A stretch of 64,000 nt of DNA, taken from contig LGRX02034716.1 in NCBI GenBank assembly GCA_001247695.2, forward strand, positions 1 through 64,000. The letters run 5' to 3'. Positions 7,815-55,400 of the stretch are shown one piece after another. Each line of letters begins with the position of its first letter. Within the stretch, counting starts at the first letter, position 1. This DNA is from Cymbomonas tetramitiformis (lineage: Eukaryota > Chlorophyta > Pyramimonadophyceae > Pyramimonadales > Pyramimonadaceae). Below the pieces are notes generated by a model, which saw only the letters and a list, made by a program, of their open reading frames with translations, made no database searches and was not told the origin of the DNA. A program made the translations under genes and the position numbers.

Positions 7815-8387
7815 GGTGGTGAGTGTCACTAGCTGGTCCACCTCAGATGAGGTGGTGTGCTGGAATTGACACTACGACTAGTTCGTACAGTCTAGTGCCA
7901 TTCCTGTATGTCATCTTCGGTGGTCAGCCTGTGTCACTCATCTCGGGTATATATCGTTTGTATATCCGAGTTTAGTGATCCGTTGTTTCACCGTCGGCAG
8001 CGGGTCCCCACTGCCTGTTCAGCTGTTTCTAGCAGGTCTTAAGTCAAAAATCGCTATATATATCGCGTTTGAATGCAACAAAGTCAGGCGCCCGATGAAA
8101 ATCTTGGTTGCTTATTTTCACATATTCTAAAAGGTGCTTAAAATGGCACCCTTGCTTCATGAATTTTTACCAATAGCATTTAGAATAAGAGTCACCTAGG
8201 CCGCATTCTTATCGCAACTATAACTCCATACTAATGATAATTGGCACTATCTCTCAAAGAAAGAGTTTCCGTCATCGCTCTCACGATATGCCGCACATGC
8301 ACACGACATTTGTTGGATATACCCCTAGGACCCGGGATATATTCACTCAGTGATCGGTTTTCTCAGAATGTAATCAAGTTGATAAGC

Positions 8388-8678
8388 TGTCACGGATCGA
8401 AAGATGACAGACGCCCGCAGTCGCGATGTTGGTACGTCGTCGTCGATGTCACACGCATAGTCGATCATCGATCTGTAACAGTCCGATCTGTACGAGTACC
8501 ACTGAAATGCGCGAGAGGATCATCATCCTCCGCGTAGCTCAGTTGGTTAGAGCGTCGCACTAGAGAAGCGAACGTCACGGGTTCAAATCCCGTCGTGGAG
8601 CATTTTCGCCCCATGACGATATATGATTTGACCCGGCTCGTACAGTGAAAATCCCCGCACCGATTTCAAACCCTAACA
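8388..8678 (+). repeat. Left LTR of the TRIM
   Basis: 291 bp, TGTCACGG...CCCTAACA. It matches the right LTR except for C versus T in the anticodon stem of the embedded tRNA-like gene. Confidence 0.93.
8528..8601 (+). tRNA. tRNA-like gene, anticodon AGA, inside left LTR
   Basis: 74 nt folding as a class I tRNA. Acceptor CTCCGCG pairs with CGTGGAG (one G-T), the D-arm GCTC/GAGC has loop AGTTGGTTA, the anticodon arm TCGCA/AGCGA has loop CTAGAGA, the variable loop is 5 nt, and the T-arm ACGGG/CCCGT has loop TTCAAAT. The A-box TAGCTCAGTTGG (8535-8546), B-box GGTTCAAATCC (8580-8590) and a TTTT terminator (8603-8606) are intact. The anticodon would read a Ser codon, yet serine tRNAs normally have a long variable arm, and the last anticodon-stem pair is A-A. 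It is therefore more likely a tRNA-derived polymerase III promoter than a decoding tRNA. Confidence 0.8.
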
Positions 8679-8679
8679 T

Positions 8680-8691
8680 TGGTATCGAAGC
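8680..8691 (+). promoter_or_regulatory. Primer-binding site of the TRIM
   Basis: TGGTATCGAAGC starts one base after the left LTR. It shares TGGTATC and the terminal GC with the initiator-Met site typical of plant LTR elements, TGGTATCAGAGC. Confidence 0.8.
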
Positions 8692-8707
8692 GACGGTTCG
8701 GAAACCG

Positions 8708-8943
8708 CCTCAGATGTAACGGCATAAGGCACACGATGTGACCTACGCTAAGATCGCGTATGCTCGGGCACGGCGATGTGACCTGCGCTACGATCGCGCA
8801 TGCATGGGCACGATGTGACCCGCGCTGATGACGTGGATTCGGGCTGCATCCCAAGAACTGCGATGCACCTTCGGTGCGATGGGCTGCATCCCAAGAACTG
8901 CTACCCAGCTTCATCGCAGGCTGCCACGTCATCACATCTGAGG
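8708..8943 (+). other. Structured non-coding interior of the TRIM
   Basis: Two 10-bp stems (8708-8717 with 8934-8943; 8827-8836 with 8924-8933) have adjacent right arms and would form a branched fold. Inside, a 20-base segment is directly repeated (8841-8860, 8881-8900) around a small TTCG-containing hairpin. This suggests a packaging or dimerisation signal; that role is inference. Confidence 0.55.
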
Positions 8944-8995
8944 TCGGACCTCTGAGAAGTAACTCGACACGAATGTCGTGAGGTCACGACACTTT

Positions 8996-9007
8996 AAAGA
9001 GGGGAGA
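8996..9007 (+). promoter_or_regulatory. Polypurine tract of the TRIM
   Basis: AAAGAGGGGAGA lies two bases before the right LTR, the usual place for plus-strand priming. Confidence 0.75.
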
Positions 9008-9009
9008 TA

Positions 9010-9300
9010 TGTCACGGATCGAAAGATGACAGACGCCCGCAGTCGCGATGTTGGTACGTCGTCGTCGATGTCACACGCATAGTCGATCATCGATCTGTAA
9101 CAGTCCGATCTGTACGAGTACCACTGAAATGCGCGAGAGGATCATCATCCTCCGCGTAGCTCAGTTGGTTAGAGCGTCGCACTAGAGAAGTGAACGTCAC
9201 GGGTTCAAATCCCGTCGTGGAGCATTTTCGCCCCATGACGATATATGATTTGACCCGGCTCGTACAGTGAAAATCCCCGCACCGATTTCAAACCCTAACA
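9010..9300 (+). repeat. Right LTR of the TRIM
   Basis: 291 bp, followed directly by the target duplication TAAGC. One base differs from the left LTR. Confidence 0.93.
9150..9223 (+). tRNA. tRNA-like gene, anticodon AGA, inside right LTR
   Basis: Same fold as the copy in the left LTR. The single LTR difference changes an anticodon-stem G-C pair to G-T, so the stem is kept. A-box, B-box and TTTT terminator are intact. Confidence 0.8.
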
Positions 9301-9563
9301 TAAGCGGTTAACCCGTTATATGGGCATAAACAGTTAGGGTTCTGGTTCGGGTGACAGTCATAAACACTACTACGGGAAGAGTCACAAAAGTAAGCGGTGT
9401 GACAATTCCAGCACACCACCTAGTGTGGTGACCGGCCAGCCGAAGTGGAAACCTGTGAACAAACACCATCTACAGCGGTGGAAATTGAGCTCTAAGGGAA
9501 GGCCTCCCTTTCTCGGCGTGGTTGTTCCCAATAAGAGTCGCATGTGGCCCCGGGGGGGGCCGC

Positions 9564-11629
9564 TGATTGGTCGAGGTGACTAATCTGGCCGCATAGGCCG
9601 AATCACTTCGATTCAAGCGGCGTGTAAAGCATCCCAAGATGCTAGAGGGTTGCCGAAATAAAGTATTTGGGGTGGTTGTTGGGAGAGAGGGGGGGCAAGG
9701 TGAGAGCTTAAATTCGAGGGCACATCTGAGGGCCTCGGTGTCACGCGTGAATGGTACCAAGGCAGCCAAAAACCCGAACGTCATAGAGATATCAGCTCCG
9801 GATTGAAAGTGGGCACCCTGGCGGCATGAGCATTACAAATGATGTAAAACATGTCCCAAAGGTTCACTCGACCCCTGGGGGGGCTTGGAGCCCCGTGGAT
9901 CCGCCATATTTGGGGGAGGGGCTGGGGTACGATATCTCTATGACGGTTAGTCCCCACACGGGTGTGGGCAGGTCGGTACCACCGAGTTCACTGCTTGTGG
10001 CGGGCTCTAGCGCGACGTAGATGGCAAGGGGCAGGTGCCCACTTGCGAAGGACATAAGGTGAGAGGCGTGGAGTGAATTTGGGAGCAAGGGCTTGCCCTG
10101 TACCGCCCTAGTTTTAGTGCAAAATGGTGTTATATAAGGTTGTCGAAAGTGGCCCTGTAGGGGGGGGGCTGGGGCTGATTGGTCGAGGTGACTAATCTGG
10201 CCGCATAGGCCGAATCACTTCGATTCAAGCGGCGTGTAAAGTGTCCCAAGATGCTAGAGGGTTGCCGAAATAAAGTATTTGGGGTGGTTGTTGGGGGGGG
10301 GGGGGCAAGGTGAGATCTTAAATTCGAGGGCACATCTGAGGGCCTCGGTGTCACGCGTGAATGGTACCAAGGCTGCCAAAAACCCGAACGTCATAGAGAT
10401 ATCAGCTCCGGATTGAAAGTGGGCATCCTGGCGGCATGTGCATCACAAATGATGTAAAACATGTCCCAAAGGTTCACTCGACCCCTGGGGGGGCTTGGAA
10501 CCCCGTGGATCCGCCATATTTGGGGGAGGGGCTGGGGAACGATATCTCTATGACGGTTAGCCCCCACACGCACGGGTGTGGGCAGGTCGGTACCACCGAG
10601 TTCACTGCTTGTGGCGGGCTCTAGCGCGACGTAGATGGCAAGGGGCAGGTGCCCACTTGCGAAGGACATAAGGTGGGAGGTGTGGAGTGAATTTGGGAGC
10701 AAGGGCTTGCCCTGTACCGCCCTAGTTTTAGTGCAAAATGGTGTTATATAAGGTTGTCGAAAGTGGCCCTGTAGGGGGGGGGGCTGGGGCTGATTGGTCG
10801 AGGTGACTAATCTGGCCGCATAGGCCGAATCACTTCGATTCAAGCGGCGTGTAAAGTGTCCCAAGATGCTAGAGGGTTGCCGAAATAAAGTATTTGGGGT
10901 GGTTGTTGGGGGGGGGCAAGGTGATATCTTAAATTCGAGTGCACATCTGAGGGCCTCGGTGTCACGCGTGAATGGTACCAAGGCTGCCAAAAACCCGAAC
11001 GTCATAGAGATATCAGCTCCGGATTGAAAGTGGGCATCCTGGCGGCGTGTGCATCACAAATGATGTAAAACATGTCCCAAAGGTTCACTCGACCCCTGGG
11101 GGGGCTTGGAACCCCGTGGATCCGCCATATTTGGGGGAGGGGCCGGGGTACGACGATATCTCTATGACGGTTAGCCCCCACACGGGTGTGGGCAGGTCGG
11201 TACCACCGAGTTCACTGCTTGTGGCGGGCTCTAGCGCGACGTAGATGGCAAGGGGTAGGTGCCCACTTGCGAAGGACATAAGGTGGGAGGTGTGGAGTGA
11301 ATTTGGGAGCAAGGGCTTGCCCTGTGCCGCCCTAGTTTTAGTGCAAAATGGTGTTATATAAGGTTGTCGAAAGTGGCCCTGTAGTAGGGAGGGCTGGGGC
11401 TGATTGGTTGAGGTGACTAATCTGGCCGCATAGGCCGAATCACTTCGATTCAAGCGGCGTGTAAAGTGTCCCAAGATGCTAGAGGGTTGCCGAAATAAAG
11501 TATTTGGGGTGGTTGTTGGGGGAGGGGGGGGCCAAGGTGAGAGCTTAAATTCGAGGGCACATCTGAGGGCCTCGGTGTCACGCGTGAATGGTACCAAGGC
11601 TGCCAAAAGCCCGAACGTCATAGAGTTAA
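9564..11629. repeat. ~613-bp tandem repeat, about 3.4 copies
   Basis: Units start at 9564, 10177, 10791 and 11401; the last is cut at about 11629 and the region before the first is diverged. Units are highly similar and differ mainly in the length of G runs (about 6-12). Minus-strand ORFs of 178 and 204 codons cross the units, but unit length is not a constant multiple of three and G-run indels shift their frames, so I do not call them genes. Confidence 0.9.
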
Positions 11630-20561: not shown

Positions 20562-21062
20562 TCAAAGTGCTAATTTCGTGATCTCTGACCACGAAAGTTG
20601 CATCCTTTCTGATTCTATCAGGAACCTAAGATAGAATTCCTTTCTGAGTCTTGTCTCTAGGTTGTTCAAAAACCTGCCTTTGACCAAGGATTCCTCCAGA
20701 CTGACTGCAGCCAATGAGACTAGAGATGCGAATGTCCTCAGATAGTCCGAGAATGCTGAGTTCCCCTGTTCCAGCTCCATCATATGCTTCTTAGCAACTG
20801 GCTGTTTATGGGGGTTTTCATACTGACGTAGAAATTCCAGTCTGAGCTGTGCATAAGTGAAGCTTTCATCTTGTGCTAGAGTCTGGAAGTAATGTCTACT
20901 GTTGACATGCATATGTGTTATAAATACTGTGATCAGGTCCATATCTGAGACATCCGGTTAGGTGAACTGAAAGTAACGGTCCACTGTCTCAATCCACACT
21001 TCGGCATCTTGTCCCTCCTTGAATTCCTTGGGAGAGTTCATCTTAACCTTGGGAACAAGACT
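20562..21062 (-). pseudogene. Gag fragment of a Ty3/gypsy-type retrotransposon
   Basis: The minus-strand frame reads a retrotransposon gag core: a W-containing E.WI..V..YF segment near 20990, a frame stop (TAA at 20958-20960), then LRLEFLRQY, a Q-rich turn, and SDYLRTFASL followed by RFLNNLETRLRKEF. The order and spacing fit the Retrotrans_gag domain, which packages element RNA. No zinc knuckle or pol region follows in this orientation. The fragment is broken and truncated. Confidence 0.7.
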
Positions 21063-42360: not shown

Positions 42361-43020
42361 CTGTGTTTGCTTGTTAACTGATGACCGTCATCCATTGGGT
42401 TGTTTCTGCTTTGCCATTTGCAATCCATCATCGCTTCTTTTGATACCATTATAGTCACAGAGTGAGACAATGAAGATGCCAGTCGTCAACCCTCAACGAA
42501 ATGAGGTGTATGTGTGCGTGTGCGTGCTATGTCATTTTTTCTGGATGCATCTGGGATTTTTGTTTATAAGAATTTCGTGGCGCTGATTTTGACGAAGATC
42601 TTTGATGTGTTGTAGTGACACTGGTAGAGAAATGCACACGTGGCAGTAAATGGCTGCAACAGCGGGCACGTATCAATAAAGGGCAATCACAATTATGACG
42701 TTTGTTAATTGTGTCATTTTGGTAGTTGTCCGTTTGTTTGATGTTTGAAGTTTTTGAGCGGCATAGATGATGAATTTCACACTTTGGCATTCACAGTTAC
42801 AAAGTAAACATTGCTTCTCGGATGACATACACCCTACATTGATATGAATATTGCAACACCCATGTTAGTGTCTATGCTTTCTAAAAAATATGTATGGTAC
42901 AACAAGCAAGTCTTGATATCTGAACAGACGGATGTATTGTGACAGTATAGGCACCCATCACCCTACGTACGAGCAAGTGGCACCGAACCCCCTCGTCCTT
43001 ACATTTTTTGCCATGCATAC

Positions 43021-43209
43021 CTTGCGGTCCCAGTGACCCAATATAGTTAACACATCGTGACTCCCATCATCACGTGGATGAGCACCACCGTCACCGCCGC
43101 CAGCACTACTTTGCTCTACATGATGTTCCGTCTTCTTCTTGATCGATAAGCTTTTCCTCATAAATTTAGGCAACAAGCTCTTCTTCTTCTTCTTTTTTGC
43201 AGCTTCCAT
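43021..43209 (-). CDS. Possible first exon of an unknown protein
   Basis: A minus-strand frame starting ATG at 43209 gives a very Lys-rich N-terminus (MEAAKKKKKKSLLPKFMRKS), a Gly/Asp/His-rich linker, then HDVLTILGHWDRK. It ends at a good donor (CGCAAG|GTATGC) at 43021. No downstream exon was recognised within 1 kb. The start looks like a nuclear or nucleolar basic tail, but no domain is identifiable. It may be a gene fragment. Confidence 0.3.
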
Positions 43210-43658
43210 AAGTGCCTGTCAGACCCCTACACACAAATGAGCAATATTGACACTTAAAAGACGATTAACGTTTAGCAGTGCGTAAAGGTGCACTGAAACA
43301 ACTATAACTCGCGATTTACTTTGCCGAATGCATTTTTTTCTTTTTGAACGTTGGAGAGTATCAACAACGCTTTCATATATGTCCGATACATATATCACAT
43401 CGCCAATAAATGTTTGTTCACAGTGCATGTTAAAATGAGCAGTAACCAGAGAAGTTCCAGAGGTTTGGGGGCATGTCATCAGCGATATTTCGTGATCCGA
43501 GGTGCGTGCAACATTGGAATGGGTCGGGGGATGTGGCTAGATGATGGGGATATGGCATTTGTCGCACACAATACGTGCCGCAAGTGAGAGTAATGTACAA
43601 AAACGTGATGGTTATGCAAAAAAAACTGATTAAAATACTGAATGAACCAATTCGCTTT

Positions 43659-44209
43659 TTAACCCCTAAGAAGCGGATGGAATCTTTAAGGTTTGAGAAT
43701 CCGCACATATTTCGCGATAACTCAAGCATCGGATAACCAAATTTACTTTTGAACACAACTACGGAAACGTCTACTCATGGCGGATTGTATAAGCGTGTCT
43801 AAAATGCCGTTCCTAGAATATTCGTCAAATTGAATTTGATAGACTTGATAGCAAAATTTACTCTTTAACCTAGAAAAAAACCCTGATGCCGACCCTAGTA
43901 TACCTAGTGTGCATCATGCCTAATGCTCAATATCAATAATGTGTTATACATCCGTGTTAGGGCGCATGTAACGCTCGTTACATATGTGCCCTATGATTGC
44001 CATACTCATGATATGCAAAATTTTAGGTTTAAACCACAACCCTCGAAAGAGTATGTCTGATTTGACTATCTCCAAATACACAGTTGCATGCAGCTTGCCG
44101 AAAGGTTTTCAGAACTGTCTTCAAAAGTGAATTTGACATTCTTACGGCTTCACAATGCAGAATTGAGTGATCCGTCCGTATACGGTACAAACCGCTCCTT
44201 AGGGGTTAA
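43659..44209. mobile_element. piggyBac-type miniature element 1, 551 bp
   Basis: Bounded by TTAA on both sides, with inverted ends CCCCTAAGAAGCGG and CCCCTAAGGAGCGG. No transposase. The right end carries a subterminal CCGTATACGG palindrome also present near the left end of the autonomous element at 48248. Confidence 0.88.
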
Positions 44210-44934
44210 GTGTTAATAAAAGTACCAACTTGGGGATGGGTGTTCACATTTCTTAACTGAGTGACAGGAATCACTCAGTTACAAGAATTTTGCGCAAAAA
44301 ACACGACATCGTTGATCTTGAATAAAAGTGCCCAAAGCAAATTTATTTTTATGACACGTGGATAATATGATTCTTACATCATCGACAGAGCTAAAACAGT
44401 TGGCTTTATGAATATCCGATCAAGAAGTTTTGTCGGTAAGAGGCGTAAATGTTTGCAAACAATACTCTGACAACAAATATAAGTATATTGATATTGTGTG
44501 GGGTCTACGGTATTATTGCATCCAGATCCGAGTTACGCGACCACCTCCGGATTAACCCCACATCACGACTATCGTTTATTACGCGTCAAGGTGGTTTTCA
44601 CATATGACAACGACAAGCACAAATACGGGCCATTCCTTTATTTAGGAACATCTAGTCGGCGACACGCCCGAGGAAAGTGATGCCCAATCTGACGAAAGTA
44701 CAGAGCCTACAATGCTTTGGGATGTTATGTTTAGATATATGCGCGTAATACATACCGTGGCTTATATACAAAGTTTTATACCGTGTTGCTTATGGGGTAT
44801 GAGTGAAAGGTGATATACCCAAACCCTAACATTTTAGTGTTGGTATGCACATATTTCAAGGTAACATTTGCGCGAAGGCCTTTTTTGCAAAAACTTTTCA
44901 GAAATGATGCTAAACCTCGAGATACGAGCTATGT

Positions 44935-45975
44935 TTAAATTTTGTACATCTGAACAACGTTCTGATTGATCACAAAGCAGAGATCTCCGTAACTCTAGCT
45001 CACTTCAATTCATACTCGTGAAAAGTAATTTTTTACGTGCTACCAACCACAAATCGTGGCACAGATCATACTAGCTAACTATGATCCTCCTGTGTGCCTG
45101 CCACCTCAGTCGCGCTGTGTCGATCGTTCGTGCTTCCACAAATCCCGGCTCGTCCTCCTTGAATACTGCCAGCTTCATAGCATTCTCAGTTGAGCCTCAA
45201 GAAATTCCAGGAAAACGTAGCATACTTACTTCATTTGGCGGACTCCAATTCCTTCGTCACCTCACCGCAGCGCATCGCGTTGACGCCAGCCGTCACGTCA
45301 AGGGAAGCCGAGAATTGCCGGCGGTGAAGCGGAAAAATAAAAGACCAACAAAATCACAAGTAGGTAAAAACGCCACGAATTAATTACCTGCAGTGGAACA
45401 ACAACACTTCAGTAATTTCAGGAGTACACCGTGCTTCACCACCGGCATGCTCCCGAGACTGCCGAAGTGGACAGCGTTCGTGCTCTTGACGTCCTCGACG
45501 CACCAGTCCATACCACCAGATCCAGTCGTACACCCCAGGTCTCCCAAGCACCAGCGCCGTCGTCGTCCCACCAGCTGCAGTAAAAAATGCGTCGCGTTCG
45601 CTACGTTGTCTAGAGAGTCGAAAGAACGAACGCGCGACACCGCGCACCAAAATGGCAACCCTAACTATCCCCGGCAAACAAGGGCCTGCGCGGCCTCAAA
45701 GCACCACCAAACAGAATAAACATCGACAAGCATCGCCAACCGTGTCGCAAGGTAGTATGTACATAAAAATTCCTCTGTGCGTAAATATTCTGCTGGTTCG
45801 CCCGGCGTGCCACGCTCCCTTCAATATGCCAACCCACAACTGTAATCTCCAAAAGTGCTTCAAGCCTCTTCCTTCAATCACAGCAACATGAGAGGTACCT
45901 CTTTCGAGCCCCTTCTCCTCAATACTCAGCCCCGCGTCGACCACCTCGCAATAGTGGCGCGTTGATGACTGGCAA
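44935..45975 (-). repeat. R1 dispersed repeat, copy C (full length)
   Basis: About 1.04 kb, nearly identical to copies B and D. The strand shown is the orientation with plausible coding: exon-like frames with donors (CTGCAG|GTAATT) and a final open segment AMKLAVFKEDEPGFVEART ending in TAG. The family is unrecognised; it may be a captured gene fragment spread as a repeat. Confidence 0.85.
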
Positions 45976-46741
45976 ACAAAGCTATGTTTAAATTTTGTAC
46001 ATCTGAACAACGTTCTGATTGATCACAAAGCAGAGATCTCCGTAACTCTAGCTCACTTCAATTCATACTCGTGAAAAGTAATTTTTTACGTGCTACCAAC
46101 CACAAATCGTCGCACAGATCATACTAGCTAACTATGATCCTCCTGTGTGCCTGCCACCTCAGTCGCGCTGTCGATCGTTCGTGCTTCCACAAATCCCGGC
46201 TCGTCCTCCTTGAATACTGCCAGCTTCACAGCATTCTCAGTTGAGCCTCAAGAAATTCCAGGAAAACGTAGCATACTTACTTCATTTGGCGGACTCCAAT
46301 TCCTTCGTCACCTCACCGCAGCGCATCGCGTTGACGCCAGCCGTCACGTCAAGGGAAGCCGAGAATTGCCGGCGGTGAAGCGGAAAAATAAAAGACCAAC
46401 AAAATCACAAGTAGGTAAAAACGCCACGAATTAATTACCTGCAGTGGAACAACAACACTTCAGTAATTTCAGGAGTACACCGTGCTTCACCACCGGCATG
46501 CTCCCGAGACTGCAGAAGTGGACAGCGTTCGTGCTCTTGACGTCCTCGACGCACCAGTCCATACCACCAGATCCAGTCGTACACCCCAGGTCTCCCAAGC
46601 ACCAGCGCCGTCGTCGTCCCACCAGCTGCAGTAAAAAATGCGTCGCGTTCGCTACGTTGTCTAGAGAGTCGAAAGAACGAACGCGCGACACCGCGCACCA
46701 AAATGGCAACCCTAACTATCCCCGGCAAACAAGGGCCTGCG
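45976..46741 (-). repeat. R1 dispersed repeat, copy D (partial)
   Basis: Head-to-tail with copy C and differing at few sites, ending where the miniature-element sequence resumes. The tandem arrangement suggests unequal exchange after a single insertion. Confidence 0.85.
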
Positions 46742-47473
46742 CGAAGTATGTGCTTAAGTATGGGAGAAGATCAAGCGGTATCGGCCTTAACTTTTCCATA
46801 CCGTGGCCACTTTGATCCCTAAAGTGTGCAATATGTTTAATTTGCTTTGGGAGACCTATTTATCAAATAAACATATTTTCAAAAGTTTTTGCAGAAAAGG
46901 CCTTCGCGCAAACGTTACCTTGATTTGGTGAATTCACGCGTGCTACACTGGGATACGAGCTGGCACTACCTGAAATTATGAGCCCAGCCAGCCAAGTACA
47001 ATATTTTATTCCCAACTATCATATTAACTTATAGCAATTGTGATACACCACTTTGGTGGCAATGCGTGATACTCCTTGCAACCCAAAAATTGGGTTTATG
47101 GTTAAGTAAGCTTTTGGAACCTACTTTCACTTCACCCCTCGCATTCATAACTCCATAACAAAATCAATTCTAGATACATACTCGGGTTGTGCGATGCGTA
47201 ACCTTAGATGGACCATTCATGTGTATGGTGGCCACTTGGTTTGACATAAAACACCCACTGGTTGGTCTATTTGAAACAAATTAAATTAACGCCTAAGCTG
47301 CTATGTGTTGTGATATCGCAACAAATCTTCAATTACGATTTCTGAAGTCATTCTGAAGTATGACCTCTACTTTTATACTTTTCAAATACAGTTTTGAAAA
47401 CGTCTCGCTCAGGCGCATCCTTTGACATGTCTACAAACTGCTAGTTTACATTGATTATCAAATGAATCAGGAT

Positions 47474-48251
47474 TAAAAGTGCAAAAGTGTCCTTAAACGT
47501 GTCAAAGTATCCTTAAAAGTGTCAAGTGTCCTTAAAAGTGCCAAAGTGTCCTTAAAAGTGTCAAAAGTGTCCTTAAAAGTGCCAAAGTGTCCTTAAAAGT
47601 GTCAAATGTGTCCTTAAAAGTGCCAAAGGTGTCCTTGCTTAAAAGTGTCAAAGGTGTCCTTAAAAGTGCCAAAGTGGCCTTAACCCCTAAGAAGCGGTTT
47701 GTACCGTATACGAACGGATCGCTTAATCCTACATTGTGAAGCCGTAACAATCTCAAATTCACTTTTGTAGACAGTTCTGAAAACGTCTTGGCAAGCCGCA
47801 TGCAACTATTTACTCAGAAATAGTCAAATCGGGCATGTGCTTTAGAGAGATGCAGTTGAAAGCTTAACTTTCGCATATTATTAGTAGGGCACGTCTAGGG
47901 CACATATATAATGATTGTTACATGTGCCCTAATCCGGACACATAACCCCTATCCGATATTGGACATCGGGCATGATGCATACAGGATGCACTAGGGTCGG
48001 TATCAGGGATTTTTCGTAGGTCAAAGTGTCAAATTTGGTATTAAGTCTGTCGAACTTTCGTTTATGAAACTTATATGAACAACATTTTCACGACGCCTAT
48101 AACATCCGCGTTAAGTAGACGTTTCCATAGCTATGTTCAGAAGTAAATTTGAATATCGGATGCTCGAATTATTGCAAAATATGTGCGGATTCCTTAACCT
48201 TAAAAAGTCCATCCGCTACTTAGGGGTTAAAAGTGCCAAAGGTGTCCTTAA
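47474..48251. repeat. 18-20-bp minisatellite containing TTAA, split by an insertion
   Basis: Units of the type GTGTCCTTAAAAGTGCCAAA run from 47474 to 47690 and resume at 48231 after the piggyBac-type miniature element. Every unit offers a TTAA, the piggyBac target. Confidence 0.9.
47690..48230. mobile_element. piggyBac-type miniature element 2, 541 bp
   Basis: TTAA-bounded, with inverted CCCCTAAGAAGCGG and CCCCTAAGTAGCGG ends, in reverse orientation relative to the first. It sits in a unit of the minisatellite, and the array sequence matches on both sides. Confidence 0.9.
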
Positions 48252-48292
48252 CCCCTACTAAGCGGTGTGTTCCGTATACGGACACATTGGCC
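48248..48292 (+). repeat. Left terminal repeat of the autonomous piggyBac-like element
   Basis: TTAA followed by CCCCTACTAAGCGG and the subterminal CCGTATACGG palindrome, as in the two miniature elements. It lies 256 bp before the transposase ATG. The matching right end was not found before 51400 nor between 61258 and the window end. Confidence 0.85.
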
Positions 48293-48507
48293 GTTCAGAT
48301 TTAGGGTTACGTGCTATGAAATGGTTGTATATCGTTGGATATACGGCGATCCAATCACAATAGTGCCGGGTATACACTTCTACTATAGTCCCTATGGAGT
48401 ATATGTGCTCGCCGTTGACAATATATCCCCAAACCTGATGTATTATTGAGTGCACAAGTCAAGAAACATTAGGGTAATATCTTGAAAACATACTGTTTTT
48501 TTCAGTT

Positions 48508-50732
48508 ATGGCACCACCAGTTCAGCCCCTTACTGCAGCTGGTATAATCAAGCGGCGTATAAAGACCCCAGGAGAAGTTTTCGGTGAGGCTGTTAAGCAC
48601 AAAACATACATAGGCACTATAGTAAAGCGCAACAAACCACGAGGAGACCCCCCCGCTGAGTGTGTCACTGTTCGTTATGACGATGGGCAAAAGTGTTGGT
48701 TCCCTGTTACAACAGTGTCGCGCTGGCTTCTGCCCGTAGGTTCCCCTGAAAGCGCCGACGGTGCCGAGTCCGAAGACTTGAGTGATTCCTCAGACCCCGA
48801 CGAAGACTCCGACTCGGATAGCGAGGCTGGGCAAAAAGTTGTTCCAGTGCGTCCAGCGAAAGCGAAAGCAGTTGAAAGCGCAGAGGAGAAACGCGCTAGA
48901 CTTGACTTTGAAGAGCACAAAAAATCAGTCACTCAGGCCATCCACTCTCGTTTCGTGGAGAAAAAGCGTACCCCAACCCCCGACATCGAATTCAAACCGT
49001 CGAAGGGGAAACCGTCAAGCCTTTTCCACGACCCACCTTGCGATAACAAACCAGGCTTATTGAAAACATTCGTGTCCGAGAAACCTAGGAACATTGAGGA
49101 GGGCATGTTTTATGTGTTTGGGAAGTTGTTGCCCAAGTCTTACTGGATCAAACTGAGCAACAACAGCGTCAAATACGCCGTCTTCAAGAAAGCCGGCGAG
49201 GACTCGAACGCCGACAAGGACCCGGATGATCGCTTTCAAATGTATAAGGGTAAGGGGAAGCAGCGCCCTTGGGACCCTAAGTGGGTAAGCCCTAACGGTT
49301 TGCTCTTGTTCCATCAGTCGTTGCTGCTCATGACGATGAATAAGCGGAACGCCGCGATGGACCACTTCTCCCTTGACAACTTGCTGAGGTCTATCTTGGC
49401 TGAGCAATATACGCGAGACTCTTGGGCCCAGTCCTTCAGGTTTTTTTGCCCATATGATGTCGACGAGTACAAGGCGCAAAAAGCGGGGACTGCTGAGTAC
49501 AACCCCTACCTCAAGTACGGACTGATTCAGGATACGTTGTATGATGGCATACACTCGATCTTACTGCCTCCAAAAGTCGGTTCCTACGACGAGGGCGGTA
49601 AGCCATGGACTGGCAAGGGCGGGGAGGGAATCACCGTTCACTACAACCCGCAGAAGCCGAATAAGCGCATGAGCATGTGCTACATGTTCGCTGCGTTCGG
49701 AATTCCGTTCGCTTGGGAATTTTACACAGGGCAGCGGTCTAACACCTACAACGAGAATAAGCATAATACACCTGAGGAGCGCGCGTATGGGAAGACTATC
49801 TCCCGCATGTTGCGCCTTTTTCGCCGAGCTTTTGGTGACAGCAAGGGCATGGAGATCTACATGGACAACTTGTTCTCCTCCGTATTCCTGTTCTACTTGA
49901 TGCGCACGTTCTTTGAGGCATTGTGCGTAGGCACACACCGAAAAAACGACGGCTTTCCTGAGCTTTCGTGGGAAGCAAAATACAAGCGAGGTGAGTACAG
50001 TGTTTGTTGCTAGCCTGCACCTGTGTGATGTGCGTGAGTGCGGTGGTCTTGAATGTGTGTGTATGTTACGTAGGGGACATTCAATGGGCAACCGCCAAGT
50101 ACGAAGACGTGCCCTTCGTTTATGTCGAGTATGGCGACAACAAAGTTGTCCGGTTCCTCTCTACCAAGCACGGCTCCCCTCACACCAACCCCGGTCGTAC
50201 GCAGGAACGATGGGATTCGGACACGCGTACTTACCAGGATATTTTTTTGCCGCAGATCAAATTGGACTATGACGCAGGAATGATGTGGGTAGACTTCGCT
50301 GATTTTCTTGAGTCTTTTGTGCGCATACAATACAACTTTCGCAGGCCGTATCTGGTGAACTACTTCTGGTGCTTTGAAACCGCAGTTACTGTTTCGCATC
50401 AAGTGTGCAAGCTACTGTGGCCGGATTCTTTCAGGAAAGGTGGCCGTAGCTTTTACGATGATTTGCGTGCTTTGTGTCGGAGCATCGTCCTGCAAACAGG
50501 AACTATTCGCCGGGTGGAGCAGAAGGCGAATAAGCGGTCCCGCCGCGCGGGACACGTTCTCGCTTTCAATCACCCACCCACAAACCAGTTGCCTAAGGGT
50601 CGTTGTGAGCAGTGCAAAAAGCGAAGCATGAAAAAAAGGCTGACTACCCACCCGATTCATCGAGGGTGTCAAGAGTGTGGAGTTCCTTTATGTGGTGCAA
50701 CCTGCTGGATAGCTTGGCACAGGGAACTTTGA
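48508..50732 (+). CDS. piggyBac-like transposase, two exons, apparently intact
   Basis: Exons 48508-49990 and 50074-50732, with an 83-bp GT-AG intron and matching phase, give 713 residues. Such enzymes cut and paste DNA at TTAA. The RNase H-fold triad can be placed: D361 in SYDEGGKPWTGKGG, D453 in EIYMDNLFSS and D568 in MMWVDFADF, spaced as in the family. A C-terminal cysteine-rich domain (CEQCKK...CQECGVPLCGATC...H) matches the DNA-binding CRD of piggyBac. The N-terminus has an SH3-like segment (TYIGTIVKR, VRYDDGQKCWF) and a long acidic Ser/Asp/Glu linker, making it longer than the ~594-residue moth enzyme. A T-rich tract and CAG just before the ATG suggest a 5' UTR intron. It could mobilise the two miniature elements nearby, which share its termini. 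Confidence 0.92.
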
Positions 50733-51400
50733 GCCCGAGACAAGCAAAAGATGTGGTTCGCGAAGAATGCTCATCGTCACCAGTAGTTGAGCGACTGTGC
50801 GCGCATCACATGAATGTGTAGGGAATCTTTTAATGTCCCTTGTTTGGTAAAGGGCCACTTCTCAAGTAGGTTACTAGATAGTAAAGGCACTTATTGTTGA
50901 CCCCACAACCCTTTATTATTGTTTCGCATGACCACCAACACTGTCCGATGTGGAAGATGTGCTTGGCAGGAACTCTCCTGGCAGATGTAAGCATCATTTC
51001 GTGTAAATCTTTCCGATGTAAGTGAAAGCACAACACACATAGCTCCTATAGCACCTATGTGCCACCGCTTTGAAGTGCACGCTGTTGGGGTGGACTTACA
51101 GTGAAGTTCTGACCGAACCCAAACCCTGACGCGTGAGGCCCACACGCACTCAAATTGTAGCTTTCATAGTCAAAGAAACAAGCCATGTAAAAGTGCTTCA
51201 CACGGCTAATGATTGCAGTGTAAGTTTAGCACTTTTACTATAACATCATAGTAAACTTGCAAATCGAATATCTCGTCAAGATAAGTAGTTATGTGCCTGC
51301 AACATTCACAAATGATATTGTTTCTTGAAATTTGTATGGCATTTTTTGAACTTTACACTCATTAGGGTAACCATTTCTCCGTGATCCGGGGACGGACATA
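50733..51400. other. Downstream of piggyBac-like gene, no feature
   Basis: No gene and no recognisable right terminal repeat. A small inverted pair, AAAGTGCT and AGCACTTT, lies near 51190-51237. Confidence 0.5.
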
Positions 51401-51422
51401 GGCATGTGGCACGCGTGGGTGG
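51401..51422 (+). repeat. Left terminal inverted repeat of the 9.86-kb element
   Basis: 22 bp, complementary without mismatch to 61237-61258. Preceded by ATA. Confidence 0.85.
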
Positions 51423-51441
51423 ACGGGGGTTACATACTTAA

Positions 51442-52325
51442 GTGCATAATTTCGGTAAATGTTATTATACGGCTTGATATTTTTGGAGAAGTTTGGAGAA
51501 GGTTTGGACAAACTCAAAAATATAAAATTTTGACATTTAGGGTTTAGGAGTAGTCGTGCGGGGCCATTTTGGTCACTGCAAACCGCAGGAAATCGTGTTT
51601 TGCACTTGGCATGCATGCGCGTCACATGAATGTGTTGATAAAAGGTCATCGCCGAGTTTGGGAAGGTGCACCAAGTTAGTTGAAGGCACTAGAAAGTTGC
51701 ATAGCCAAGATTTTAGGGTTTTAGGGTTGCTGGCGGGTGAAATATTGGCTGTGAGAGCAGGGGTTTCGCATATGCGGGGTCCGCTATAAAGTGCATAATT
51801 TCGGTAAATGTTATTATACGGCTTGATATTTTTGGAGAAGTTTGGAGAAGGTTTGGACAAACTCAAAAATATAAATTTTTGACATTTAGGGTTTAGGAGT
51901 AGTCGTGCGGGGCCATTTTGGTCACTGCAAACCGCAGGAAATCAAGTTTTGCACTTGGCATGCATGCGCGTCACATGAATGTGTTGATAAAAGGTCATCG
52001 CCGAGTTTGGGAAGGTGCACCAAGTTAGTTGAAGGCACTAGAAAGTGGCATAGCCAAGATTTTAGGGTTTTAGGGTTGCTGGCGGGTGAAATATTGGTTG
52101 TGAGAGCAGGGGTTTCGCATATGCGGGGTCCGCTATAAAGTGCATAATTTCGGTAAATGTTATCATACGGCTTGATATTTTTGGAGAAGTTTGGAGAAGG
52201 TTTAGACAAACTCAAAAATGTTATTTTTTGACATTTAGGGTTTTGGAGTAGTCGTGCGGGGCCATTTTGGTCACTGCAAACCGCAGGAAATCAAGTTTTG
52301 CACTTGGCATGCATGCGCGTCACAT
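51442..52325 (+). repeat. 349-bp subterminal tandem repeat, left side
   Basis: Units start at 51442, 51791 and 52140, exactly 349 bp apart, ~2.5 copies, almost identical. The plant-telomere-like TTTAGGGTTTTAGGGTT occurs once per full unit. Short ORFs on both strands recur with the units and are artefacts. Confidence 0.92.
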
Positions 52326-52438
52326 CAAAATTGTGATACCCCAAGTTTGTTCAAATGCTTGAGCATAAATATGCAAAAAATGTTATCATTATTGCATTGT
52401 GAATGCCAAATCACATACTATATATTAGAATGCCAAAA

Positions 52439-55400
52439 TTACAACAGTGATAACACGCGCTCATGCTCGGCGACAGGCATCTTGTACACATCCCCTCTTT
52501 TAACTAGGCGCACATCGGTTGCACGCACGGCTTCACAAGAGATCAAGCACTTTTTACTTGTGTCTAGTATGTAGTCATCTCTCACATCGGCATCTTCCCA
52601 TTCAAAGTACCTCCCCGAAACCACAAATTCTCCCGGGGCAAAATATTGCCCATAGTCATCTCGGCGCCCCCTAGGTCCAACCTCCGTCACGGCGGATAAC
52701 GCCTTCACCAAGTAGTAGGCGTGTGTGCGGTCCGCCGGGTCTCGGTGGACCGCGATGATGCATCCGCGCCGCACCGCTACACTCACATCACTCGCATACT
52801 CCTCCACCAACTCCCGCACCCTTGCCGCGTCCGCACCCGTTGCGGGCGTCAATTCCACCTCCCTCCACAAATCCACATGCGAGCTCTCCAAACAGTTCTC
52901 GGACGTCGGCATGGACGACACACATTCCGCATAGCATGACACGCAATATCATGTCCTGTCGCGCACCAGCAACTTCCCCTCCACGCCCGGTCGCACCGAA
53001 TGCGGTTGCAAAGTGCGCTCCAAAGATTTGTATGCGATGCGCGCCGTGTGATCAACCGCCGACAAACCTCCCGCCATTTCTTTCGTCGCGTCCTCGGGAA
53101 CTAGATAAAAAAATCGTTGATTGAATGCGGCCCTCGACTTCGTGTGGCTGGTGTCCGCGAGTGTGCGCAACCTCTCCACACAAAAAGCATAGAGATCGGC
53201 CGCACACAAGATCTTCCCATACCATTTGTCACCCTCCGAAATTACTGCCACCGCCGCTGCATGCTTCATGTGTGCCCCTGCTCCGTCCTGCTCCCCTTTA
53301 GCATGCGCCGTCTCAAAGAAGTTCCGCTGACAAGAAATCCCCAACGACCATTCCATTTTGCTGTTTCCCACGTCCGCGAATCCCGCAGCGCACTTGTTCT
53401 GCCCCGCACAGCCATCCGCCCATTCGTGAATAAATATTGGCTTCGGAATCCCCCTTTTCTCAAAGTACTCCTTGATGATCACCTCGCGCATGTACTGAAT
53501 GAATCTGTGATCACTGATAAAGTACACATAGTCCTTTATCACAACCGGGTTCTCCGCCGTGGACTCTACCCCATCGACTTCCTTGCACGCGTGCCGCCAT
53601 AATACACACACCAACACAATAGCCTGCTTCACCACCCAGTGCAAACTCTGAACTTCCCTCGGGATGTTCAACGAATGGTTCTCGGAGAAGTCGAAACACC
53701 ACGCCGTATCCCCAACGGCAAATCCGTGATACACGTCTTAAATTGACGGTGCTGGTGCAAGGCCATGAATGTATGGTAAGCATAGGGACGCAAAAACGGG
53801 CAGTCCCCGACGCCATTTAGCCTCCGCCACTTCCACGATTCCGACGCCGCGTCCTCGCACAGAAAGCGTCCATTGCACCGACAGTTTGGCGACTTCCCCG
53901 GTTCGTGCCCCAGCAACAACGTTTGCAGCTTAGATATCAACGCCCCCAATTTCGTCTTCTTCTGCAAAAACTGCAACCTCCTAACCTCTTTCCCTTCGTC
54001 GTCGTACTTGCCCGTACTAAGAGTCTCATAGCACGACCACCTCACCTCCTCCGCATATCGCACCTCCTTCTCGCACACTTTAAAGTTCGTCAAACCTCCG
54101 CACTGTTTGCAGGTTTGCAACAAGCACTCTATGCGGTGCGTATCCCCTTCACGCGGGCACAACAGACTCTCCGCGAACGTGGAGGTAGACTTCCCCGCCT
54201 TCACGATGCCACATACTTGCCCCGTCGGCGCACCCACCGCGTTCTCCCTCTTTTCCTCCGCCGTCCGTGGCACTCGGGGGCAACACTTCTTATCCTTGCA
54301 CGGGCACTTCTTGTGCACCGCCTCCCGTGCTTCGTCGAACCCTTTAAGGACCATGCGCATGTCCTCGTGATACCTACAACAACAAGAGAACTATGTTGTC
54401 CCTTCTTCTCAACCGTACCACATTGTGCGGTTTACAAACTCCCGCCTTCTCAAACGACCTTTGCCCCACCTTCACGCTTGGATATTTCGCCACAAATCTC
54501 CGGTACACCACTAGTTGCGAAGCCTCAAGCCAATGCTTGCTAACGTACTCACGGGGCGTCTTAAGCTTCCCCGTGTGTGGATCTCTTGCCAACACCACGT
54601 CCTTCTTACAAGGACTCACGCGCGTGTTGTCCGGGTGCAACCAAAAGTCGCGGATGAGTGCACAAGTGGCTTCCGCCATGCACCCTGAACGACGCCCACG
54701 TCGCTTGGGGCGCGTCACACCCACGTGCAAGCTCCTTCGTGCACGCTCGGCATTGCCAACCCTCGCACCCGCCAGCATGTTTTTATGCCCCGTGATGCCC
54801 GCATATCCTACACGCTTATGCACGCCTAACATTGTTGTCGTTGCGGTTAAGACGTGCCCCTCTTGCATGTTCTCGCCAAACACTGCGGCCGCCACTGCAA
54901 GCTTGTGTTCCTCGTTCAAGTTAGAATTCCTACTCGACAGCGCCCCAAAGACCGCAACCAGGTTTTCTAGAATGCAGTCCATAGCTTTGGTCTTCGCCAT
55001 TTCTGTATCACCGAACAACGTTGCGCGACAGCGTTGCAGCACACCTACTGCCACTTCCTTTGGCAGCGTTTCAATGTACCCCCTCACCGCTGAAGCGATG
55101 CGGTTTGGGGACCTACTAAAAATCTCGCTCATCTTCCCTATCCAGTGGTTCCTGTTTCCTTGCTTCATTGGCGTGTATTCATGTGGTCTGTCAACTTCGT
55201 GACGTGTGTGCGACCGCCGCAAACCATCTTCTTGCCCCTCTATCCCTCCTTTGGACACTTCGCGCGAAGTGTCCAGTTCGTCTGGAGAAGAACATTCCTC
55301 TTTGTCTGAGCTGTCAGGAATCTGACAATTGCGCAAGGGCGTGGAAGTCGCCTCAGCTCGTGCAGATGCCCAAATATCGCACACCGAATCCAACTTGGTA

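Follow-up and report, generated by a model that had tools for sequence, protein, structure and literature searches.

The 64,000-nt window analysed here, from contig LGRX02034716.1 of Cymbomonas tetramitiformis, a chlorophyte of the class Pyramimonadophyceae, contains a 913-bp TRIM at positions 8388-9300, which comprises two LTRs and an interior. An earlier note on this DNA had described a complete element with 291-bp LTRs that differ once, a TAAGC duplication and a purine tract, and repeat and flank comparison confirmed this description. The parts of the element are as follows.

8383..8387, no strand: target-site duplication TAAGC, 5' copy, 5 bp (flank comparison)
8388..8678, + strand: 5' LTR, 291 bp (repeat alignment)
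8679..9009, + strand: internal region, 331 bp (between the LTRs)
8680..8691, + strand: primer-binding site TGGTATCGAAGC, 1 base downstream of the 5' LTR
8996..9007, + strand: polypurine tract AAAGAGGGGAGA, ending 2 bases before the 3' LTR
9010..9300, + strand: 3' LTR, 291 bp, with a single difference from the 5' LTR (repeat alignment)
9301..9305, no strand: target-site duplication TAAGC, 3' copy (flank comparison)

The LTRs begin with TGTCA and end with TAACA. Their sole difference lies at LTR position 182 (C at 8569, T at 9191), within the anticodon stem of the tRNA part described below, where it turns a G-C pair into G.U. The primer-binding site, TGGTATCGAAGC, has 10 of 12 bases in common with the Cassandra site as quoted, TGGTATCAGAGC, and it is through this likeness that the site is called Met-like, in line with the Met-type primer site named earlier; a single pattern for the host initiator tRNA had no match in the viral contig collection. 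The longest stop-to-stop frame inside the TRIM, 105 aa on the minus strand, resides in the internal region, and a protein database returned no relatives for the two frames searched of 24, the 105-aa frame among them. Near-repeats spaced 40 bp apart occur in the interior (8679-9009), and its fold is more stable than that of 99 of 100 shuffles (z -2.55); the folded interior is a possible packaging structure.

Several features lie around the element. A 34-nt inverted repeat (7850-7883 and 9388-9421, 82% complementary) flanks the TRIM on both sides, so the TRIM may sit within an older inverted-repeat element. Shortly downstream, a tandem repeat of ~610 bp occupies 9562-11628, and at 20565-20957 on the minus strand a frame matches a retrotransposon gag domain (E 2.5e-9). 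Further along is a piggyBac-type transposase frame, 48508-50010, which is 99% identical to CYMTET_52204; 12 of its 14 matching proteins carry the name Cymbomonas tetramitiformis. No relatives of the piggyBac protein were found in viral contigs, a collection from which the host's own records may be absent.

Each LTR carries a tRNA-like sequence with both internal promoter boxes, followed by a short T run.

8528..8601, + strand: tRNA-like sequence of the 5' LTR, 74 nt, anticodon AGA, class I (ARAGORN, RF00005)
8535..8546, + strand: box A TAGCTCAGTTGG, 5' LTR (motif)
8580..8590, + strand: box B GGTTCAAATCC, 5' LTR (motif)
8603..8606, + strand: TTTT, possible Pol III terminator, 5' LTR (motif)
9150..9223, + strand: tRNA-like sequence of the 3' LTR, 74 nt (ARAGORN, RF00005)
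9157..9168, + strand: box A, 3' LTR (motif)
9202..9212, + strand: box B, 3' LTR (motif)
9225..9228, + strand: TTTT downstream of the tRNA, 3' LTR (motif)

Both sequences are called Ser(AGA) by ARAGORN and score 58.4 bits (5' LTR) and 53.7 bits (3' LTR) against RF00005. No other tRNA is called in the window, and 50 dinucleotide-shuffled windows gave no ARAGORN call. The cloverleaf pairs at 7/7 positions of the acceptor stem (one G.U), 4/4 of the D stem, 4/5 of the anticodon stem (one A-A) and 5/5 of the T stem. The 74-nt class I fold with A-box, B-box and TTTT that had been claimed for each LTR is thus upheld by the tRNA calls, the cloverleaf and the motifs. Elsewhere in the window, neither the box A nor the box B word occurs. 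Folding energy alone does not set the two sequences apart (z -1.58 and -1.59): of 200 shuffles, 17 and 12 respectively were as stable or more so. No further T run lies in the 618 bases that separate the two terminators, which is equally ordinary, since 874 of 1000 shuffles also lack one. The tRNA-like sequence is complementary to the first 32 bases of the interior over at most 6 nt, which argues that it is not the primer of reverse transcription.

In eukaryotes, a long variable arm is characteristic of serine tRNAs. The variable loop of the tRNA-like sequence is 5 nt, and the serine anticodon sits on a class I body, a disagreement of isotype read from the fold. A working serine tRNA is unlikely for these reasons, and the tRNA part is probably a promoter. 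The suggestion that the element could be spreading tRNA genes therefore stands for tRNA-like sequences, and probably not for functional tRNAs.

The host genome searched comprises 851.7 Mb in 25,745 contigs; a published nanopore-Illumina assembly of Cymbomonas is given, in the part of its report consulted, as 914.3 Mb in 35,945 scaffolds, of which interspersed repeats make up 68% (PMC10675990), so the genome searched may be a different assembly. A search with the 5' LTR gave 1053 first-look candidates, and the best 40 of these 1053, which were scored, all match it at 99-100% identity along its entire length. At up to two mismatches, the 22-base sequence CCCTAACATTGGTATCGAAGCG, in which the LTR end joins the primer-binding site, occurs 349 times in the genome, against none for the reversed control. 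We fetched 46 loci, which take in all 40 scored LTR matches and hold 30 distinct LTR-internal-LTR units. Sixteen units have identical 5-bp flanks, and all 16 words are different; the flanks of another 11 place them in tandem arrays, an array unit having a second primer-binding site after it or a second purine tract before it. The remaining three show neither duplication nor array, and two of these have the same flanks. At seven loci (L008, L012, L014, L018, L020, L025 and L029) the second LTR is truncated, split or missing; these gave no unit, and their complete LTR is counted among the 51 distinct sequences discussed below. In a subset of 19 units the same primer-binding site was present in all 19 and the same polypurine tract in 18. 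LTR pairs flanked by target-site duplications are 0 to 5 substitutions apart (gaps ignored), so many of the insertions are young.

One fetched locus, L038 on contig C6873, is a tandem array in which eight TRIM LTRs lie in a row with interiors and seven tRNA calls are made. Outside the host genome no copies were found with three exact patterns in viral contigs or with one exact pattern in a genome contig collection, in both of which the host's own records may be absent. A genome-wide tRNA family search, in which the best 63 of 30467 candidates were scored, all at 59.2 bits or more, gives no family count because both tRNAs of the window TRIM score below that value. Among the matches scored, contigs C21113, C4825 and C23810 hold a strong tRNA match (mostly 70.8 bits) repeated in tandem every 233 bp. 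The family also matters for annotation: should the copies at the 349 junctions resemble the examined ones in carrying the tRNA, transposon ends would account for hundreds of tRNA-Ser(AGA) calls in this genome.

The earlier note had raised three ways in which its reading might fail: no other copies with the tRNA in both LTRs, a tRNA position that drifts among copies, or a tRNA that arrived as a one-off insertion. Other copies with the tRNA in both LTRs were present among those fetched, no drift was seen, and the other copies rule out a one-off event. A tRNA-Ser(AGA) call was made in 50 of the 51 distinct LTR sequences, always with the anticodon AGA. The single window copy is all that speaks for a host tRNA gene inserted by chance in one copy, with the LTRs then equalised by gene conversion; this explanation is refuted by the presence of the tRNA in nearly all distinct LTRs, at many sites with different target-site duplications, and we give it practically no weight. 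Against it also stands the lack of a SINE-like direct repeat of at least 6 bp around the tRNA within the LTR (49 bases before compared with 76 after).

To describe variation along the LTR, we used matches spanning LTR position 3 or earlier to 289 or later (1 to 291 in the smaller set). Variable sites number 51 of 140 in U3, before the tRNA, 9 of 74 in the tRNA and 22 of 77 in U5, after it. Per position, the tRNA thus has about one third as many of them as the other parts of the LTR (73 of 217; Fisher p 0.0003, a value that, like those that follow, overstates independence because the best-scoring copies, 40 of 1053, were sampled and the copies have common ancestry; nor are the sites independent of one another). 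In an earlier subset of 35 sequences, 5 of 74 tRNA sites varied against 42 of 217 (p 0.010). Box A is intact in 50 of the 51 LTRs, as is box B, and with the boxes taken out the tRNA still has only 8 variable sites of 51, against the same 73 of 217 in the rest of the LTR (p 0.011). This lower variation over the whole tRNA and not the boxes alone, in a sample of best-scoring copies, is the interesting part of the case. Six stem positions vary, of which 3, 42 and 50 keep a G.U pair and 25, 26 and 54 break the pair; the fold being kept by compensatory changes, which had been put forward as a check, therefore finds no sign here, among copies that are too alike.

Two readings of this pattern go beyond a promoter. 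TRIMs with tRNA-derived LTR sequences were named Helenus by Kojima (2024), who proposed the term TRIMp3 for Pol III TRIMs (PMC10886601). That the Cymbomonas TRIM spreads functional tRNA genes would fit both the near-universal AGA call and the reduced variation outside the Pol III boxes. It is at odds with the serine anticodon on a class I body, the 5-nt variable loop and the A-A mismatch in the anticodon stem, and the same kind of disagreement between anticodon and body occurs in many Helenus families, where Kojima read it as non-functional (PMC10886601); we find this explanation very improbable. The other reading is that the whole tRNA fold, and not only the boxes, is under selection as the R region, as a structured RNA end that would serve start, stop and strand transfer, or processing by tRNA enzymes. 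We offer it tentatively and as an unlikely one; if true, there would be a chlorophyte TRIMp3 lineage whose tRNA body does a job in retrotransposition. The young and numerous copies make this family a good case for asking whether the tRNA is a promoter only.

From the anatomy of the element and its copies, we think it likely that this is a Helenus-type TRIM (TRIMp3) that is moved in trans and whose tRNA-like sequence acts as an internal Pol III promoter. As no coding capacity was found in the TRIM, it should need an autonomous LTR retrotransposon in order to move; the enzymes would be those of such an element of the alga, and no autonomous partner was found. The tRNA-like part would supply box A and box B, and Pol III may begin transcription in the 5' LTR close to the 5' end of the tRNA. 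The polymerase would at times pass the short T run, or meet none, copy the interior and terminate at the tRNA of the 3' LTR or beyond it. Such an RNA would have the tRNA at either end as its terminally redundant R region, the repeat needed for strand transfer, an arrangement already described for Cassandra and its 5S part, and reverse transcription would be primed by an initiator-Met-like tRNA. By the account consulted, transcription of Cassandra begins within the 5S of the 5' LTR, and the RNA ends within that of the 3' LTR (PMC10886601). The same Pol III proposal was made for Helenus by Kojima (PMC10886601).

The weak point of this mechanism is the terminator, as TTTT in the 5' LTR, where present, should stop most full-length Pol III transcripts. 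TTTT follows the tRNA in 36 of the 51 distinct LTRs and is missing in 15; among 12 elements examined with flanking target-site duplications, a run of four Ts comes after the tRNA in nine 5' LTRs and nine 3' LTRs (in the 5' LTR of L023 it lies at position 215), and one of the 12, L003, has no such run at all. These T-run lengths can be in error should the assembly, like the published one, rest on nanopore reads. A strict terminator is not required, because so many LTRs lack TTTT and one element has no T4 run anywhere. The ordinary folding energy of the tRNAs and the equal split of stem changes between those that keep and those that break a pair also count against the promoter reading.

The main rival takes the genomic RNA to be made by Pol II from other LTR sequences, while the tRNA yields at most a short Pol III transcript of its own and is kept for some other benefit, such as open chromatin or RNA folding. 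An early end of Pol III transcription would follow from the TTTT that stands 2 bases past the tRNA in the window copy and shortly past it in the 36 LTRs that have one. TGTAA, which is a poly(A) signal in some green algae, is present in both LTRs (8474 and 9096) and once in the interior (8715), and TATAT occurs in both LTRs (8620 and 9242). A crude motif test found no TATA[AT]A, CAAT or AATAAA in the element; moreover, TTTT is not universal, so Pol III read-through is possible in many copies. On this balance we hold Pol II origin to be fairly unlikely, and the tRNA-like sequence as internal Pol III promoter remains our preferred reading.

A much larger relative was found in the same genome. Loci L031, L032 and L039 belong to one large LTR element on contig C18373, at about 42396-55298, whose ~12.9 kb include a TRIM copy (L013, with duplication GAGGC) inserted in it and an insert of ~1.5 kb in its 5' LTR. 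Its LTRs, of ~600 bp, start with TGTCAGGG and end with CCCTAACA. Like the TRIM, it has LTR ends of the form TGTCA[C/G]GG...CCCTAACA and a primer-binding region with TGGTAT; its 34-bp purine-tract end is 88% like that of the TRIM, and two blocks of its interior are 83% and 87% like the TRIM interior, with a shorter block at 92%. The LTRs of the two elements show no similarity by BLAST at E 1e-3. Between the LTRs of the large element there is no open frame of at least 200 aa, which makes this copy a non-coding relative and not the mover, and both elements may depend on the same coding element.

Among known systems, Helenus is the closest in anatomy. Like the Cymbomonas element, Helenus elements are TRIMs (311-1263 bp) with a tRNA-derived sequence in both LTRs and boxes A and B kept, and they have a primer-binding site, a polypurine tract and, in fungi and plants, 5-bp duplications (PMC10886601). 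Also described for Helenus are anticodons often at odds with the tRNA body, solo LTRs, tandem arrays in one family and a tRNA-like sequence that is not complementary to the primer-binding site, in agreement with the complement of at most 6 nt seen here (PMC10886601). Every defining Helenus feature tested is found in the Cymbomonas TRIM, namely a short non-coding element with two LTRs, an LTR tRNA with its boxes, a primer-binding site and polypurine tract, and a 5-bp duplication (4 or 5 bp by definition); it is assigned by this anatomy, with the named families compared by description only.

The likeness to Cassandra, a plant TRIM with 5S rRNA sequence, is one of organisation: in the source as consulted, Cassandra too has a Pol III gene in each LTR, a Met-type primer-binding site (TGGTATCAGAGC) and tandem arrays, and is non-coding. 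Cassandra carries 5S, whereas the Cymbomonas TRIM carries a tRNA instead, and at the Rfam gathering score the window has no 5S rRNA, only tRNA. The idea of a Cassandra-like strategy with a tRNA thus holds in so far as this is a TRIM with Pol III promoter boxes in each LTR, but the strategy is not new, as Helenus had been described (PMC10886601). Chlamydomonas and Volvox TRIMs are also green-algal (Gao 2016, PMC4717578), and the word 'tRNA' occurs 0 times in the main text, with no tRNA-bearing LTR in the part consulted. A 2026 meeting report, in the part consulted, refers to Helenus in one sentence and in its references (PMC12859917). Among the titles and abstract openings listed, with subscription literature mostly outside that scope, none describes a green-algal TRIM that carries a tRNA, and the published descriptions of the Cymbomonas genome, in the portions consulted, mention none.

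The Cymbomonas TRIM differs from the listed Helenus elements by its chlorophyte host. The hosts in Table 1 of Kojima are fungi, animals and the lycophyte Selaginella; that table has no chlorophyte, and the main text no word starting with 'Chlorophyt' (PMC10886601). Kojima infers multiple origins of Helenus (PMC10886601), and the occurrence of tRNA-bearing TRIMs in a chlorophyte alga as well fits either many independent births or a wider spread than reported. The kind of element is already known from Helenus; what this case adds is a new host lineage, a large young family and the degree to which the tRNA is retained.
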